From: a virus
Strand: one strand, 5' to 3'
IMG/VR virus record: IMGVR_UViG_3300049847_000305
Span: 1-27,462 of that record
Length of the DNA stretch: 27,462 nucleotides
Part shown: positions 931 to 25,858 of the stretch, piece after piece
Position numbering within the stretch: the stretch's first letter is position 1
How the letters are laid out: each line of letters starts with the position of its first letter
The notes under the pieces: model-generated
The model's database searches: none
The model's input: the letters and a program-made list of their open reading frames with translations, nothing else
Told to the model about the DNA's origin: nothing
Program-made: the position numbers and the translations under genes

Positions 931-3696
931 TTACCCCGAGTTATTGGTGACGTGGTAGAATCTACCATCGGCGAAGCAGGCGTCGATGTTGCCAAACCCC
1001 GTGAAACGACTCCACTGTTTCCACTGAGTATCCCAGACAAGTACGTTGCCCACCGACTGGTAGAACCTCACCTGCTGCTTTGTGGAGCCCACGACCGCGA
1101 CCGCCGTTCCCGATGCCAGCTCGTCCACCTCGGAGCCGACCTGCTTCCCGTCCTGGCCGATGGCAAGTCCGCCCTGTCTCGACATCAAACGGAACCCATA
1201 GGGCGAGCGGAACCACACCCCATCGGTCGAGCGGATGATGGACTTTGGAGAGTCCCAGTCACCACCCAGCTCGAGGATGATGGGCTGGAAATCGCTGTAC
1301 TGTCCCTGGGTGCCTGTGGGCGCTGGACCGGTCCCGTAGATGACTCCCACGGCCTTCTCAGCAACCACCGCGAGCTTGTCGTCCAGCTCCATGGTACCGA
1401 CCGCGCGACCGTACGAAGCGGGGATGCTGGTCTGGTGAGTAGGGTCGTCGGTACAGAACTCGGGGCCGTACCCGGCTTGGGTCTGCTTCGACCAGTGAAC
1501 CTTCGAGCCATCACCGCACCCAGAGAGCACGAGACGTTTCTGGAACGTGGAGACTTGACGGCAGGCGGGGGCGGGGGTGTTGGGCAGTACGCCACCGGAA
1601 GTGTAGAGCTGTTCACCCGAGGCCAAGGTAGCATCCACAGCGATGTACGACGATGCTGAGCCGACCGCGGCTAAGTACAGCGTCGTATCGGTGGAGCTGC
1701 CCAACGTGCGGTACATACGGTACGTGACATTACGCTTCGACGTTGGTACCCTGGCCAGCGAGGTCTCGGGTAAGTACCTAACAGTGGCACTTGATGTCAC
1801 AGTAGCTTCGTTAGAGGGGTAGCTCTCGTACCAGTTCCCCGCTGCATCCTGCCACCCCACAGTGAAGCAGATGGTATACGTCTTCGTATCGGCCGGGAGT
1901 GCCCAGGGGGACGTAGAGGAGGATAGCGTGGCCACCCCGGAGGAATTCACCGTAATCTCGGGTGCGTGGTGGAAGCCCTCCTCAAAATAATTCAGTCCGT
2001 CGAAAATGTGAGGGCATGCTCCGGACAAGAACGTAACGCCGAGAACTTCCTCATGAGCTAGCTGTGTCTCAGTATCTACAGACAGCTGTCGAAGTACCGG
2101 GACAGTGATGTTCAATGTGGAGGTACTGGAACTCCCAACGAGCACGGCATTCTGCGAAGTTCCGATGTAGACAGTAACGAAGCCAGCATCACGAGTAGCA
2201 AGGTTGGGCAGCAGGACCTGAGCCCCACGTACGGCCAGTGAAGTTCCGCCAGCACCATACTCAGCGCGAGTCAATACCTCAAGCGGAGGGTCATCAATCC
2301 CACTCAACGCCGCATCGTAAGACGCAGTAACATCCACAATATAGTGAGTCTCCTGAAACTCGGAAGGTATCCGCATGGGGAGATAGATTCGAGAGTTCAG
2401 CGTAGCGAACTTCCCAGAGGGTGCCCAAGAGACAGCCAACTTCCTATCGCTCGGGGAACCCTGAGAGTGCGTGAACGTCACATAGCGAGAATTCGAGCCC
2501 TCAGTCCCACCAGCGTTGAAGTAAGCCAGCATGCATAAAGAGGTAGATACTTGAACGGCCGCAATAGTCCCGGAAGTACCGGTGCCAAGGTTAGCTAAGG
2601 TTACTTCAGAGGCACTGGTGACGGATGTGGTCTTATTGTAGTAACGACCCTTTACGTCATCGGTGTTGATTGTATAGAGCGCGTGGTACCTTATGACCGC
2701 GCTGCCATCTACGGAGATGAGCGCGGCCATGCCCCATTTAATGTTCCCAGAGGCGGTAGGAATGGCAACGTCGGTCCACTCATCGCTGGTAGCATCTAAA
2801 TCAGTTATGCAGTAAGTGCCACTTGTGTCGGTCTTGTGTACGATGAGAATTGTAGTGCCACGGGCCGTTACATCGTACAGGAACTGGTTAGCTTCCGAGT
2901 CGTCTGGTAATCCGGATGTAGGAGCATACACCTCATCGGTAACAACAGCTACAGCCGATACAGCCGCCGTCGAGGGCTTGACCGTAGCGTACATCATCTT
3001 ACCGACAGAGGTAGTAACACCTGTGGGGTCGTACCTAAATAGGAAGACGTAGAAAGTAGGCACGCCTCCAACACCTGAGGTCACGCTCACTACTTTGGGC
3101 TTCACGTAGAAATACAGCGTGTCATACAAGGTGGTGTTGACCACTTCGATGTTGTTCACGGTATCCACTACACGCACCACCACCCCTACGCCCTGGCTCG
3201 TGTCCGCGGTCTCGTAGACGTAGCAGTTGTAATCCCCAAGGACGGCCACATCGACTGAGCCGCCTCCCATAACCAGTGATGATATGGAAAGGTTAGCATT
3301 CAAGTCCGCGAGGTTTTGGACAGAGTAGAGTGGCGTTCGAGAGACAACCTTCTCCTCCATCGCCGCTCGGCGAAACGTCGAGGGAGCGCTAGTAGTCAAA
3401 CCAATGGGAGGATTCTCGATTTGAGTACTCCCACCCGACTTCTTCACCCTCTCCAGCGTGGTGAATCTCTCAAGAAGTGCGTTTCCCTGATGGGTGAACA
3501 TGCGGACCGCTGGGTTATTCGAACCGCTCGCTAGCGTGGCCCTCACCTGGGCGTCCCGCGTACGCAGGGTGCTCTTATCGTCAAACTCGACGTTGTCCGC
3601 AACGGTCAGCTTCGACGGAATGACCGTGAAAGGGTCGTCCTTGGTCTGGACGCCACCGGTCAGATTCAAGTTGACGACCTGTTTCTGCAGTGCCAT
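931..3696 (-). CDS. Tail nozzle / packaged-DNA stabilisation protein (P22 gp10 / T7 gp12-like)
   Basis: At 921 residues this is the largest structural protein here. It is rich in Thr, Ser, Val and Gly and looks all-beta. It opens with a short basic-hydrophobic segment (MALQKQVVNLNLTGGVQTKDD), then a region on defining an initial set of values typical of nozzle proteins (KLTVADNVEFDDKSTLRTR). The C-terminal third carries FQKRLVLSG, VHWSKQTQAG and DGVWFRSPYGFRLMSRQGG, matching the repeated beta-blade pattern of nozzle proteins that report 'wall' contacts around the DNA channel. Its order after the adaptor and before ejection-type proteins agrees. The ATG at 3696 directly abuts the TGA of the upstream gene. 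It ends at ...RFYHVTNNSG, short of the usual C-terminal domain, which is encoded next door. Confidence 0.75.
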   Translation of the reverse strand: MALQKQVVNLNLTGGVQTKDDPFTVIPSKLTVADNVEFDDKSTLRTRDAQVRATLASGSNNPAVRMFTHQGNALLERFTTLERVKKSGGSTQIENPPIGLTTSAPSTFRRAAMEEKVVSRTPLYSVQNLADLNANLSISSLVMGGGSVDVAVLGDYNCYVYETADTSQGVGVVVRVVDTVNNIEVVNTTLYDTLYFYVKPKVVSVTSGVGGVPTFYVFLFRYDPTGVTTSVGKMMYATVKPSTAAVSAVAVVTDEVYAPTSGLPDDSEANQFLYDVTARGTTILIVHKTDTSGTYCITDLDATSDEWTDVAIPTASGNIKWGMAALISVDGSAVIRYHALYTINTDDVKGRYYNKTTSVTSASEVTLANLGTGTSGTIAAVQVSTSLCMLAYFNAGGTEGSNSRYVTFTHSQGSPSDRKLAVSWAPSGKFATLNSRIYLPMRIPSEFQETHYIVDVTASYDAALSGIDDPPLEVLTRAEYGAGGTSLAVRGAQVLLPNLATRDAGFVTVYIGTSQNAVLVGSSSTSTLNITVPVLRQLSVDTETQLAHEEVLGVTFLSGACPHIFDGLNYFEEGFHHAPEITVNSSGVATLSSSTSPWALPADTKTYTICFTVGWQDAAGNWYESYPSNEATVTSSATVRYLPETSLARVPTSKRNVTYRMYRTLGSSTDTTLYLAAVGSASSYIAVDATLASGEQLYTSGGVLPNTPAPACRQVSTFQKRLVLSGCGDGSKVHWSKQTQAGYGPEFCTDDPTHQTSIPASYGRAVGTMELDDKLAVVAEKAVGVIYGTGPAPTGTQGQYSDFQPIILELGGDWDSPKSIIRSTDGVWFRSPYGFRLMSRQGGLAIGQDGKQVGSEVDELASGTAVAVVGSTKQQVRFYQSVGNVLVWDTQWKQWSRFTGFGNIDACFADGRFYHVTNNSG

Positions 3697-7543: not shown

Positions 7544-9502
7544 TTAACCAACTACGGGAGGCACTGTTGGGATGATTGGCGGGGGTACGTTGAGGGTGTT
7601 GTTGACTTGAGTCCCGCCACCGCCCATGCCGGGCTGGGGAGGGGGAGCGCCCATTTCAGGACCGGGAGGCGGACCCATCGGAGCCGGGGGAGGAGCCTGC
7701 ATTGCGGCCATCTGAGCGGTCGCGGTGTCAATGAGGTTGCGCAACAGAGACAGACGCTCTTCAGGGCAGTTGCGGTGACGTGCGTACAGGTACTGAGACG
7801 TAGCCCTGGTAATGAGCAGGGAGATATTCTGGTACGGCTCCAGCGGCTGTACGGTGGGCTCGTCGTCGTCCAGAATCTTGCTGATGGTTGCGTCTACGTC
7901 GTCAATCATGGCGTTGACAAGGTTCGTTTCCGCCTCAACGTCCGGGTATTCCAAGAGCCGTTGAGCCACGGCCTTGTCGATGAACCCGTCCTGCATCATT
8001 TCCTTGACCTTCTGGTATCGGGCCGAGGGGGTCTGAGGCAAGGACGAAACAGGCCACATCTGCATGATGTAGGCATCGCGCTCCAGGTCGATAGCCGCCC
8101 AGTCAACTTCGAGCAGGTCCCGTCTACCCGGCACGAGAACCTTGTACGACTTCCATCCATACTGCTTGGTGATAAGTTCGATGGCCAGGTCTGCATAGTC
8201 GAGGAAGAACTGCTCCCACTCCTGGTGCACGGGCGCGAAGCGTTCCGATTCGATGTCGCTGTATTCACGCAAAGCCACGGCCGCGTCCAGACCCGCGGGC
8301 TTCTTCGAGGCGGCGCTCAGCTCCGAGATACCACACTCCTGGAAGGCCTGTTGACGGAGTTGGGTAACGTAGTTGAACTCCTCTGGGGCGATGACATTGT
8401 GAGCCGCATCCTGAGGCATGGCCCCGGTGTACATGACGATGTCCCCCCCATCGTTATTCGTCAGATGGCTAGGGACAATCTTAGAGCCGATTTGCACATA
8501 GGTTCGGCCTTTGCCCTTCCTGTGCATCTGTCGGCTGATAGAGCGTACGGTACGGTTGAGTTCCACCTGGATGGGCTGCACGGTCTCGATGACGCCCTTG
8601 CCCCAGAACCCGGTAGTGCGTTGCTTGAATCGGAAAGTTACGAAGGGGAACTTGCAAATATTCCACCGCTCTTCGAGCAGCGCGCACCCGTCAATGGCGA
8701 TGACGTGTTTCCCGTCCTTGGCCTTCTTCCCACTGGGAAGGTGCCACGCTTCCCACACTTCGATGGTATTCTCGACCGTCTCCGGCTGTCCGTTGTTGAC
8801 GCTCTCGATTTTCGAGGACTTTCCTGCGTCCATGATGGCTTGGGCGTGCTTGGGGAAGAGCCGGCAGAGGATGTCACGAGCCACGTACTTCAGGCGAATC
8901 AGTTGACGCGGTGCGGCATTAGCTCCGTCTAGGTCGTCGATGAGAATCTCGTTCGGGAGCACGCGCTCGCACCCGAGTTTCCCATCCTCATCCTCAAACA
9001 CCTGGAGAAACCCGGTTCCGAACTCGCACCCGTCGACGAAGACCTGGCGAGCCTTGCGGTACACCTGGGTCTCGTAGAAGAACCCGCGGCTCCACTTGTC
9101 CAGCGCCCTGCCCTTGATTTGACCTGCCCATGAGGCGCCACTTGTGAGGAACGAGGGACGGGGACGGTTCTTCGTCACCTTCGCCGTCAACGTGTCTACG
9201 CACGAGGCGCCCACATTGAGCGACATCATGCCGGTGGAGGTCATGATTTGACGAGCTACCGCGGAGTCGTAGTCCCGGCCGTTGAGCGAGTCGAAGTCGC
9301 AGTTCTCATACAGACGAGCGTGACGCACCATGGCCGCGTGCCGGTCCCCTGCCGAGTTGAGAAGGCTAGTGCCGGTGTCGACGACGCTCTGAGCCACCTC
9401 GTCCCCATCGACTTCCCACCACCGAGAGCGAACGTACCCGGCTCGACCTCTCTTGTCCGGCTTTTCAGGGTGTTTCACTACGTCCCGGTAATCTTCCGCC
9501 AT
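7544..9502 (-). CDS. Portal protein
   Basis: The portal forms the dodecameric ring through which DNA is packaged and to which the tail attaches. I choose the ATG at 9502, which follows CAGGAG with a 5-base spacer; an upstream GTG at 9508 is too close to that site. The 652-residue product has the usual portal progression: an N-terminal wing (RHAAMVRHARLYENCDF, SCVDTLTAKVTKNRPRPSF), a stem region (PFVTFRFKQRTTGFWGKGVIE, VQPIQVELNRTVRSISRQ) and a helical crown (ERFAPVHQEWEQFFLDYADLAIELI). The last 55 residues are a Pro/Gly/Met-rich tail (APPPAPMGPPPGPEMGAPP) that is probably disordered. It is followed by the scaffold and preceded by terminase genes, as expected. Confidence 0.87.
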   Translation of the reverse strand: MAEDYRDVVKHPEKPDKRGRAGYVRSRWWEVDGDEVAQSVVDTGTSLLNSAGDRHAAMVRHARLYENCDFDSLNGRDYDSAVARQIMTSTGMMSLNVGASCVDTLTAKVTKNRPRPSFLTSGASWAGQIKGRALDKWSRGFFYETQVYRKARQVFVDGCEFGTGFLQVFEDEDGKLGCERVLPNEILIDDLDGANAAPRQLIRLKYVARDILCRLFPKHAQAIMDAGKSSKIESVNNGQPETVENTIEVWEAWHLPSGKKAKDGKHVIAIDGCALLEERWNICKFPFVTFRFKQRTTGFWGKGVIETVQPIQVELNRTVRSISRQMHRKGKGRTYVQIGSKIVPSHLTNNDGGDIVMYTGAMPQDAAHNVIAPEEFNYVTQLRQQAFQECGISELSAASKKPAGLDAAVALREYSDIESERFAPVHQEWEQFFLDYADLAIELITKQYGWKSYKVLVPGRRDLLEVDWAAIDLERDAYIMQMWPVSSLPQTPSARYQKVKEMMQDGFIDKAVAQRLLEYPDVEAETNLVNAMIDDVDATISKILDDDEPTVQPLEPYQNISLLITRATSQYLYARHRNCPEERLSLLRNLIDTATAQMAAMQAPPPAPMGPPPGPEMGAPPPQPGMGGGGTQVNNTLNVPPPIIPTVPPVVG

Positions 9503-9504
9503 GG

Positions 9505-9747
9505 TCACTCCTGAGCGTCAATAGCTCGGCCGTAGGTTTCGAACTGTTCTCGGTAGGTAAGGCCGTCTTTTCCGACCTTAGCCTTCAGGGTTTCTTGTGG
9601 AATGTCAACATCGGGCACGCTAAATGCATCTGCAGGTTCCGAGCCTAGCACAATCTCGATGTCTCCGCACTTCAATGAAAGCACGCCTTTAGAGCGCATC
9701 CACTCAGTCAAACTCGTCAGCTCCGTAATCCTGGTCCCACCACTCAT
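9505..9747 (-). CDS. Small protein overlapping the end of terminase
   Basis: The ATG at 9747 is preceded by AGGAG with a 7-base spacer, an excellent ribosome binding site, so I use it although the frame is open further upstream inside the terminase gene. The 80-residue protein overlaps the last 44 bases of the large terminase gene in another frame and ends 2 bases before the portal ATG. It begins MSGGTRITELTSLTEWMRSKG and includes a short beta pair (VLSLKCGDIEIVLG) and a charged C-terminus. I do not recognise it. Its position between terminase and portal suggests a packaging or assembly accessory. Confidence 0.65.
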   Translation of the reverse strand: MSGGTRITELTSLTEWMRSKGVLSLKCGDIEIVLGSEPADAFSVPDVDIPQETLKAKVGKDGLTYREQFETYGRAIDAQE

Positions 9748-12139
9748 CTGGATTCTCCTGTCGTGAAAGTAGTTCTTCGTCCCGCGCTTCGATGACTTCT
9801 CCAATGGGAGGCTCTTCTTTGAACTCCGTGAAGTCAATGTAGTTGAGTGCTTTCCTCCAGGAGTACAATCCGGCGTCACAATTCGAAACCAGAATGCCGT
9901 TAGCGAAGTACTCAGGGCATCCCGCTACGGTCAACGCGTAGACGACAGCAGTTCCTTTGCTTGCTGTATTTACTGACTGTGAAGGGCTTTCCGCACTTGC
10001 CACAAACTCGTTCAATGTTGTCAATGCCAGAGAGTCTACGTTCTCGGGAGTGCCATCGCTGTGAACACTTCGTAGTGCAGAAGAGACGTTCCTCAGTCCC
10101 CTCGAAAGATACTCCGCACCCTTTGCACTCATGGGTACTGCGTGGCTTGTTAGCGGCGACACGAATACCGTGGGCACGGTGCCACTCGAGTCCTTCAGCT
10201 GAGGCGTGCCACTCAGGAGCTTTGAGTCTTGCTGCCTCGAGTCCTCGACGCATCCGCTCGGGGTGTAGCTGCCACTGTTTGCGCCCGTGCTCAGCGAGGT
10301 GCTCTCTTCCTGGCTTACACTCAAGATTCTCGATGGAGTTGTTGAAGGGGTTTTCGTCTCGGTGGTGGATATGATGACGCTTGGGAATGGGCCCGTGAAC
10401 GCTCTCGTAGATGACCCGGTGCAGCCACATTGGGCGCCCAGACACAGTTCGTTTATAGTACACCCGGTCCCCTCGTTTGGTTGACTCCGGGTATCGGTAC
10501 CACTTAAACCCACCCCATTCGACGATTCTGGCGTTTTCCATGCGTAAAACACTACGTCGGTGTCGAGAACTTCGTCAAGCCTCACCCAACCTCTGCCTGT
10601 AAGCACCGGGTGTTCGGGAGTTCCAGTGAGCCCGAACCGAGTGATGACCTCTGCCTCTGGAAGCTGAGCGTGTTTGATGACTGGGTTCCACCCGCTCCGG
10701 GTAAGGACCATGTCCCCTAGCCTGATGTCTTCGATGTTCGTCCAGCCTTTACTGGTGAGGACGAGGGTGCCGGCTACGAAGCACCGATGGTTAGGAAATC
10801 TAGGGTCTTCGCCTGGGGGCTTGCCAGAATCCGGGTCCCAGTTCGGGTCTTTGGGGAGGGAGCTGTATTCCTGGGCGAGCCCTCCCCCGCGCTGGACCTT
10901 GATGCGACCGGTAACGAAGTCGTCGTTCATGAGGCGCACGTGCTCAAGCTTCTCGGTCTTCTTGGCCGCCTCGAAGACCTGGCTGTAGCGAGACATGACG
11001 TCTTCGACGTACATCCTACCGCCACCGCCCGTGTCCGCTACCTTGGCGATGAAGTTCATCCCGAGCTTCTCCCACCGCTCAATGACTTCCATCACCTCTT
11101 CCGCGCGAGCGCCCGATTTAGACCATGAGCCCGCCTCGTAGAGTTCCCTGCGTTCGGGATGCCAGCCCCATGCAACGAGTGCCATGTCGTCCCGGAAGCC
11201 CAAGTCCCACCCAAGCACGTGCTGCCACCCCGGTCCCCATGGCTGAACTTCCGCAAGGGTAAAGGTGTTGCGCACCTCGTTGAACTTGTAGAAGAGGACC
11301 CCGTCGTCCTTGACCCACTGCCCCAGGTACTCGCGCACGTACGTGGGGTTGTCGATGGCCCACGAGCGCTTCTTTCGGATGTTGGCGAGTTCCACGGCCG
11401 CATGGGGGAGGTGGGGGTTGTCGAGAAGACTCCACCGATGGCAGGACCAGCCCGCCCCTATGCGTTCCTTCTCGTCTTCCCCTACCTCGTTCTTGGCCCC
11501 GGTCGAGACTTCCTGCCCTTCGCTCAGCCACTGCCCAGAGAGGGTAGGACCTCCAGTGATGCTATACCAGTAACCGGTAGGCACTGGCCCGGGGGTTCCT
11601 TCCATGCACATCGTACCCTGCATGTCGAAGAGGCACGGTTCCGCGACGTCTTCGACGAGCGACTTGAGAAACGGCCCGAAAAGCTGGCTTTCGAGGATGA
11701 CTTCAAGGATGGTCTTGTCGCCGCGCTTCCTCTGAGCCGACTGGTCCTTGTCCGCACCCACGAATCGAATCTCCGAGCCGTTCTGAAGCTTGATGGTGAG
11801 TTCGGTCTCGTGGGTGCTGATGGGTATTTTGTGCCTGGCTGCAACGAAGATGAACTCCTGCCACAGCATCTGCTTTACACGAAGTCGAGTGATGCCCCAG
11901 ATGCGGATGAGACTGTGGGGCTTCTTGAGCGCCTCCATGAAGCAGTAACGCGGCCACATCGACGTCTTACCGGCACGACGAGTGCAGATGGCCGCCTTGT
12001 TCCGGGAAGGGTCCTTGACGAAGCGAAGCTGCCTGTCGAAGAGTTCCCGCTCGATGCCCTCGCATACCGCGTCTGCCGACGCACGAGCCTTGGCCCGTCG
12101 TGCCATCTCTTCGGCGGCTTTGCGAGGGTCGAGCTTCAT
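9704..12139 (-). CDS. Terminase large subunit, intein-containing precursor
   Basis: This is the ATPase-nuclease that translocates and cuts DNA at the portal. The 811-residue precursor has an ATPase domain with a Walker A motif TRRAGKT at residues 53-59 and a probable Walker B around VILESQLF (146-153). An RNase H-like nuclease domain follows, with D312 in LGWDLGFRDD, D369 in AKVADTGGGG and D755 in CDAGLYSWR. Residues 453-753 are an intein inserted immediately before the last nuclease Asp, between FPNHR and CDAG. Excision would give a mature protein of 510 residues, normal for the family. The ATG at 12139 abuts the TAA of the upstream gene. Insertion at a conserved active-site position is typical for inteins, because imprecise loss is lethal to the enzyme. 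Confidence 0.9.
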   Translation of the reverse strand: MKLDPRKAAEEMARRAKARASADAVCEGIERELFDRQLRFVKDPSRNKAAICTRRAGKTSMWPRYCFMEALKKPHSLIRIWGITRLRVKQMLWQEFIFVAARHKIPISTHETELTIKLQNGSEIRFVGADKDQSAQRKRGDKTILEVILESQLFGPFLKSLVEDVAEPCLFDMQGTMCMEGTPGPVPTGYWYSITGGPTLSGQWLSEGQEVSTGAKNEVGEDEKERIGAGWSCHRWSLLDNPHLPHAAVELANIRKKRSWAIDNPTYVREYLGQWVKDDGVLFYKFNEVRNTFTLAEVQPWGPGWQHVLGWDLGFRDDMALVAWGWHPERRELYEAGSWSKSGARAEEVMEVIERWEKLGMNFIAKVADTGGGGRMYVEDVMSRYSQVFEAAKKTEKLEHVRLMNDDFVTGRIKVQRGGGLAQEYSSLPKDPNWDPDSGKPPGEDPRFPNHRCFVAGTLVLTSKGWTNIEDIRLGDMVLTRSGWNPVIKHAQLPEAEVITRFGLTGTPEHPVLTGRGWVRLDEVLDTDVVFYAWKTPESSNGVGLSGTDTRSQPNEGTGCTINELCLGAQCGCTGSSTRAFTGPFPSVIISTTETKTPSTTPSRILSVSQEESTSLSTGANSGSYTPSGCVEDSRQQDSKLLSGTPQLKDSSGTVPTVFVSPLTSHAVPMSAKGAEYLSRGLRNVSSALRSVHSDGTPENVDSLALTTLNEFVASAESPSQSVNTASKGTAVVYALTVAGCPEYFANGILVSNCDAGLYSWRKALNYIDFTEFKEEPPIGEVIEARDEELLSRQENPDEWWDQDYGADEFD
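9881..10783 (-). mobile_element. Intein in the terminase large subunit (301 residues)
   Basis: The intein starts at Cys453 of the precursor with block A (CFVAGTLVLTSKGWTNIEDI), has block B at TGTPEHPVLTGRGW with the conserved Thr and His, and ends with block F/G (VYALTVAGCPEYFANGILVSN) followed by the +1 extein residue Cys754. These are Hint-domain splicing blocks of the Cys/Cys class. The residue before the terminal Asn is Ser rather than the usual His, which is tolerated in some inteins but could slow splicing. Between blocks B and F the terminase frame encodes about 200 Ser/Thr-rich residues with no endonuclease motif; the endonuclease is instead in another frame of the same DNA (9912-10541). 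Confidence 0.88.
9912..10541 (-). CDS. HNH homing endonuclease nested out of frame inside the terminase intein
   Basis: The 209-residue protein is read one base back (-1) relative to the terminase frame and lies wholly inside the intein DNA. It begins MENARIVEWGGFKWYRYPES, like free-standing phage HNH proteins, and has the catalytic core with H41, IHH at 58-60, N68 and N72 (HHIHHRDENPFNNSIENLE). Two C-terminal zinc-ribbon-like units follow: C139/C142/C155/C159 and C180/C183/C198/C199. The last 13 codons overlap DNA that encodes intein block F. HNH enzymes of this type make the break that copies a mobile element into an empty allele. No good Shine-Dalgarno sequence precedes the ATG, so translation may be weak, coupled, or arise by frameshifting. 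The reading frame is clearly the selected one. Confidence 0.85.
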   Translation of the reverse strand: MENARIVEWGGFKWYRYPESTKRGDRVYYKRTVSGRPMWLHRVIYESVHGPIPKRHHIHHRDENPFNNSIENLECKPGREHLAEHGRKQWQLHPERMRRGLEAARLKAPEWHASAEGLEWHRAHGIRVAANKPRSTHECKGCGVSFEGTEERLFCTTKCSQRWHSRERRLSGIDNIERVCGKCGKPFTVSKYSKQRNCCRLRVDRSGMP

Positions 12140-12394
12140 TTACTTCTTCGCGGGGGCCGGGGCGGGTACGTCCTTGACCTCGAACGTGGCGATGTTCGAC
12201 ATAGGTACGTAACGGGTGGTGGGTTTACCGTTGAGGGTGCGGGTAAGCTTGACGAAGGCCTGGGCGTCGTCTAGCTCGATGACGGTCCCGCCTGCTCCTG
12301 GTCGGTCTCCTACGCCGTTGGGGTTGTCGTTGGCGCTTTGGATGGAACCGCCGAAGTTCACTACGTTCACGAACTGCACGAAACTGAGTCGCAT
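12140..12394 (-). CDS. Small conserved-looking protein before terminase
   Basis: The 84-residue product is predicted mainly beta (MRLSFVQFVNVVNFGGSI, GGTVIELDDAQAFVKLTRTL, YVPMSNIATFEVKD) and ends in an Ala/Pro/Lys tail. AAAGGTAA lies just before the ATG at 12394, and the TAA stop directly abuts the terminase ATG, so the two genes are probably translationally coupled. I do not recognise a family. A small beta-barrel with strand-rich sequence could be a nucleic-acid or protein-binding accessory, but no function can be claimed. Confidence 0.7.
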   Translation of the reverse strand: MRLSFVQFVNVVNFGGSIQSANDNPNGVGDRPGAGGTVIELDDAQAFVKLTRTLNGKPTTRYVPMSNIATFEVKDVPAPAPAKK

Positions 12395-25786: not shown

Positions 25787-25858
25787 TGCGGGGTAGCTTA
25801 GAGGCAAAGCAGCGGACTCATAATCCGAAGACCGCAGGTTCGAATCCTGCCCCCGCTA
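25787..25858 (+). tRNA. tRNA with CAU anticodon (Met elongator or Ile2)
   Basis: The cloverleaf folds with acceptor pairs GCGGGG/CCCCGC, a D stem GCTT/AAGC, an anticodon stem CGGA/TCCG around loop CTCATAA (anticodon CAT, 25818-25820 area), and a T stem GCAGG/CCTGC with loop TTCGAAT. Position 1-72 is a T:T mismatch. No CCA is encoded. The lack of three GC pairs in the anticodon stem and the C-G pair at 11-24 argue against an initiator. CAU can mean elongator Met, or Ile if the C is modified to lysidine. Confidence 0.85.

Follow-up and report, generated by a model that had tools for sequence, protein, structure and literature searches.

Results

We analysed a 27,462-nucleotide stretch of viral DNA (IMG/VR virus record IMGVR_UViG_3300049847_000305, positions 1 to 27,462; hereafter the window) in which the gene for the terminase large subunit, terL, very probably carries a homing intein whose HNH homing endonuclease has a gene of its own, written over the central intein linker in the -1 frame. 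An original prediction made from the letters of the window had placed an HNH gene out of frame within a terL intein with a Ser/Thr-rich middle, and both points were borne out (Table 1). The open reading frame (ORF) of the terL precursor is uninterrupted, the HNH gene lies wholly inside the intein, and the linker DNA doubles as coding sequence for most of the HNH protein.

Table 1. Layout of the terL locus in the window (AF2, AlphaFold; pLDDT, predicted local distance difference test; aa, amino acids).
Feature	Position	Strand	Remarks
terL precursor ORF	9704-12139	minus	811 codons, open through the intein; phrog_2 terminase large subunit, E=8.2e-25
N-extein, terminase large subunit	10784-12139	minus	452 aa
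Intein in terL frame	9881-10783	minus	exactly 301 codons; C1, block-B T55/H58, N301, +1 Cys
N-terminal Hint splicing subdomain (blocks A, B)	10538-10783	minus	AF2 pLDDT 84-98; Foldseek matches to known inteins
Ser/Thr-rich linker in intein frame, predicted disordered	9962-10537	minus	192 codons; 19% Ser, 13% Thr
C-terminal Hint subdomain (blocks F, G)	9881-9961	minus	ends LVSN; AF2 pLDDT 78-97
HNH endonuclease gene	9912-10541	minus	209 aa from an ATG start; offset -1 to terL, entirely within intein
C-extein	9704-9880	minus	58 aa, first residues CDAGLYSW; at conserved terL D-A motif

The intein and the endonuclease

In the terL frame a Pfam search matched Hint_2 (E=7.7e-6, slightly under the Pfam gathering score), and all of the splicing residues listed in Table 1 were intact. 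The intein begins with CFVAGTLVLT and ends with FANGILVSN, and is followed directly by the +1 Cys (CDAGLYSWR). When the intein was aligned with its relatives, residues C1, G13, T28, H58, L298 and N301 were found to be invariant, and Cys1 was present in 73 of the 74 overprinted loci described below. The AF2 model of the window intein gave the high pLDDT values of Table 1 for residues 1-80 and for the last 30 residues, with values of about 40-61 for residues 81-270, and the Foldseek matches of the model were the known inteins gp41-1, DnaX and RecA. The predicted structure confirms the Hint fold of the terL-frame insert. From the intact catalytic residues and this modelled fold, protein splicing of the precursor would be expected, and the spliced terminase would be 510 aa in length (452 + 58).

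In the -1 frame Pfam matched HNH_3 (E=8.6e-15) and AF2 modelled the HNH protein with a pLDDT of 94. The closest Protein Data Bank (PDB) match was I-HmuI (1u3e), by profile at E=0.00039 and by fold at rank 1 with a weak E=0.03. The motif HHxDx4NN was present in 74/74 overprinted loci and the catalytic residues were invariant among 45 aligned sequences. The predicted 209-residue HNH enzyme with two zinc ribbons was found at its full length, but the second ribbon in the window is atypical, having CCRLR in place of the customary fourth Cys (alignment column C202, conserved at 90% or more).

The open intein frame across relatives

To score the window as a single locus, the HNH protein and its codon counts were held fixed, synonymous codons were shuffled and stops in the intein frame were counted. 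The intein frame remained stop-free in 3.2% of shuffles, or in 8.1% when terL codon usage was applied. The chance of fewer than 1 in 10,000 given in the original prediction was therefore overstated for one locus, since it ignored both the fixed HNH protein and the base composition.

Relatives were collected by HNH similarity alone, with the intein frame disregarded, and were then classed with profiles of both Hint halves. Loci were called overprinted when both Hint halves lay in one frame and the HNH in another with no stop; for a few loci the C-half profile score was weak, though the sequence there reads Asn and then Cys, Ser or Thr. The class contained 74 loci including the window, from 73 distinct contigs and falling into 70 clusters at 60% HNH identity. 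In these 74 loci no intein-frame stop was observed against 162 expected from within-gene synonymous shuffling; with host codon usage 243 stops were expected over 69 of the loci and again none was observed. As a control, 26 split or free-standing relatives read in the same relative frame contained 180 stops where 168 were expected. In bacterial genomes, sampled independently, 15 more overprinted loci were found with 0 stops against 22.6 expected, together with one clear split locus containing 7 stops. Two loci (L087 and L089) in which the HNH occupies the other alternative frame also had 0 stops, with 12-13 expected. Loci flanked by Hint halves were bimodal, with either 0 stops or at least 8 and none intermediate. 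The loci share ancestry and the summed probabilities are not strictly independent; even so, the absence of stops at the family level is far beyond chance, and selection appears to hold each frame open. The family data support the original suggestion of an HNH gene that retained its frame within an intein.

Compensating sequencing errors, which could have shifted an in-frame HNH out of frame, are excluded because about 88 separate loci of related phages and prophages share the arrangement. An intact overprinted intein enclosing a broken HNH was seen in none of the relatives. Nor was an HNH in frame with an intact intein found among the viral and bacterial-genome relatives. Three apparent in-frame cases (L018, L064 and L122) have a stop between the N-terminal Hint half and the HNH, and were classed as split.

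The original prediction that both frames look selected was supported, with a refinement at the amino-acid level. The third codon position of the HNH corresponds to the second position of the intein codon and was the most variable between relatives (0.49-0.59); the HNH is therefore the protein under constraint. Amino-acid constraint on the overlap comes from the HNH, and the intein frame appears to be held to stop avoidance only. The exception is the short stretches at both ends of the overlap, where the Hint and HNH domains truly overlap.

Mobility of a related element

Highwayman (OZ038341.1) is an Acinetobacter phage with an overprinted intein in terL. Its N-extein DNA is common to 42 Acinetobacter phage records, many 98-99% identical, and its intein DNA matched no other phage record. 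Acba_21 and MRABphi22 were used as empty-site references; BP10 terL was also considered and was too distant. The Highwayman terL equals that of Acba_21 plus exactly 981 nucleotides and 15 substitutions, all of which lie within -163 to +12 of the junction. They include the change of the +1 residue from Leu to Cys, a residue which the intein requires. This insertion, accompanied by substitutions clustered at its junction, reads as a co-conversion tract and indicates that this overprinted element probably homed recently as a unit. Two further loci, L104 and L105, were listed beside Highwayman for apparent recent homing with a co-conversion tract.

Split and free-standing relatives

The N-exteins of 67 scanned loci matched terminase large subunit families, and the insertions cluster at the conserved D-A nuclease motif of terL with an exact register that differs between loci. 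Free-standing HNH relatives often adjoin terL. In other relatives, among them L011 and L012 (Vibrio phages) and L018 (Lactobacillus CL2), separate ORFs encode the two Hint halves on either side of the HNH, and either the old frame is full of stops or the N-half ends just ahead of the HNH. Trans-splicing may be expected in these split relatives. Loci noted as candidate natural split inteins, in which terL is apparently parted by an HNH between the Hint halves, are L011, L018, L048, L050, L056, L062, L064, L073, L093, L100, L116, L122 and L125.

On an HNH tree the overprinted class was not one clade, and it is therefore likely that the class originated several times or that changes recurred. On this tree three or more label changes are suggested for overprinted loci, while L087 and L089, the other-frame pair, group together in a clade apart; it was a quick tree with many open forks and does not settle origins. 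Across HNH genes the mean number of stops was 6.9 in the -1 frame versus 18.3 in the other frame, which would explain the dominance of the -1 frame.

Proposed mechanism and alternatives

Our proposed mechanism is as follows. Ribosomes starting at terL would stay in the intein frame across the HNH region, and the Hint halves would then be joined by a long stretch of disordered linker; with its catalytic residues intact and the fold as predicted, Hint would then excise itself and join the terminase exteins. Other ribosomes would begin at the internal ATG just past block B and produce the HNH, as the family start-codon and Shine-Dalgarno data suggest. By comparison with Highwayman, the HNH would cut intein-free terL near the codons of its nuclease site, and the entire element, both frames included, would be copied in during repair. 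Selection would preserve the HNH sequence and, as the stop statistics show, a stop-free intein frame, presumably because a single stop would truncate the essential terminase. Relatives freed from the stop constraint would be those split into N-half, HNH and C-half ORFs.

Alternatively, a programmed -1 ribosomal frameshift could yield the HNH, fused to TerL and the N-terminal Hint half. In favour of this, nearly all loci are in exactly the -1 frame and the window has no strong Shine-Dalgarno site, but slippery heptamers were not enriched (2 in 5,482 nucleotides, under the extein rate) and in 54 of 73 loci an HNH-frame stop precedes the start by at most 30 nucleotides (median 12 nucleotides). 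Moreover, 68 of 74 HNH starts are ATG, located towards the end of the Hint N-half, and a Shine-Dalgarno match of at least 5 nucleotides is found ahead of 31% of HNH starts, compared with 6.4% of ATGs lying out of frame in the exteins (p=1e-9). Two loci also use the other frame. We regard frameshifting as improbable. Internal initiation is the best reading of HNH expression across the family, and by extension the window HNH would be initiated in the same way. Such separate translation would allow endonuclease dose to be set apart from splicing.

It is less probable still that the HNH is a decaying passenger and that the intein has become fixed as a long-linker mini-intein. The atypical second zinc ribbon of the window would fit decay, but the invariant catalytic residues and a codon-position divergence consistent with purifying selection in the HNH frame speak against it, as does the recent homing of the sibling element in Highwayman.

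HNH genes of this type are frequently located in phage introns, and the terL of ICP1 is spliced by an intron (PMC10448857). The overprinted region might thus be removed as RNA, by a group I intron or similar, or be skipped by ribosomes, so that no long linker is made. Rfam intron families gave no match in the window, however, the HNH is bordered on both sides by Hint blocks that are in frame and retain their splicing residues, and removal gives no reason for a stop-free intein frame; we give this reading very little credence. Hardly credible at all is an intein frame left open by chance or base composition with one functional frame, for although the window's own shuffling result and the naturally stop-poor -1 frame of HNH genes would allow it, it is refuted at the family level by the missing stops, which extend to AT-rich genomes and to the two loci in the stop-rich frame, and by the expected stops in split and free-standing relatives.

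Several points weigh against the overprinted homing intein as we propose it for the window. Judged by itself, the window has a stop-free intein frame that is improbable to a modest degree only (P 0.03-0.08). Its HNH start has only a 3-nucleotide Shine-Dalgarno match, and its HNH lacks the usual last zinc-ribbon Cys and could be weakened. No empty-site relative of the window itself was found, and the products of both frames are predictions from sequence and modelled folds.

Other features of the window

A tRNA gene was found at 25787-25858 on the plus strand (Rfam RF00005, 67.5 bits). Two long plus-strand ORFs, at 7607-8932 (441 aa) and 11159-12274 (371 aa), are antisense to the portal gene and terL respectively and are probably a by-product of GC-rich codon usage. 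A 921-residue ORF in the structural region (931-3696, minus strand) gave no match in a PHROG search.

Implications

We consider the odds about even that overprinted inteins constitute a widespread class of mobile element that had gone unrecognised, namely cis-splicing inteins in which the linker DNA also encodes a homing endonuclease translated on its own. Such elements would have several origins, each by the sealing of an HNH gene, free-standing or from a split intein, into a single reading frame, and nuclease supply would be uncoupled from splicing. Surveys that read the host frame only would miss them; the public records of TJE1 and Highwayman each annotate one long terminase and leave the HNH unannotated. 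Terminase annotations with unexplained Ser/Thr-rich inserts merit re-reading in other frames. The class also provides a large natural set of overlapping genes, with one frame selected for its amino acids, the other apparently for stop avoidance only, and matched natural controls. By linking free-standing, split and overprinted architectures, it makes the origin of homing inteins testable.

Comparison with known systems

The usual description of an intein has its endonuclease as a domain in the same frame; the window element departs from this canonical form, its HNH being offset by -1. I-HmuI (PDB 1u3e) and the window HNH are alike in the HNH core; the gene for I-HmuI belongs to a group I intron whereas that of the window HNH is inside an intein. 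In the 'fractured genes' reportedly described by Dassa et al. in 2009 (a study cited in PMC3229294), an endonuclease gene likewise stands between the Hint halves of a split intein, but in the window these halves belong to one uninterrupted 811-codon ORF and are not on separate ORFs as in a split intein. The canonical TerL inteins (Kelley et al. 2016, PMC5050341) resemble the window element in having a splicing domain in TerL with an endonuclease between its halves; they are in the ATPase domain with the endonuclease in frame, while the window intein is at the nuclease D-A motif with the endonuclease out of frame.

The original prediction knew of no well-described case of such overprinting, which was nearly right. 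Arsenault et al. 2025 (PMC11855218) described a methylase insertion free of stops ('ShiLan') that contains an HNH out of frame and in which no splicing domain was found. A preprint from the same group on the 'non-canonical architecture' of actinophage inteins (bioRxiv 10.1101/2025.01.02.630785) may overlap with the present finding. The ShiLan insertion (phage record JN020143) is the closest precedent of the window element: its HNH has zinc fingers and the same relative frame, and the insertion is stop-free in the host frame. The ShiLan HNH is weakly similar to the HNH profile of the window family (best domain 16 bits). The two differ in that the ShiLan insertion has no splicing domain around it and lies in a dispensable methylase gene, whereas the window element has Hint and lies in terL.
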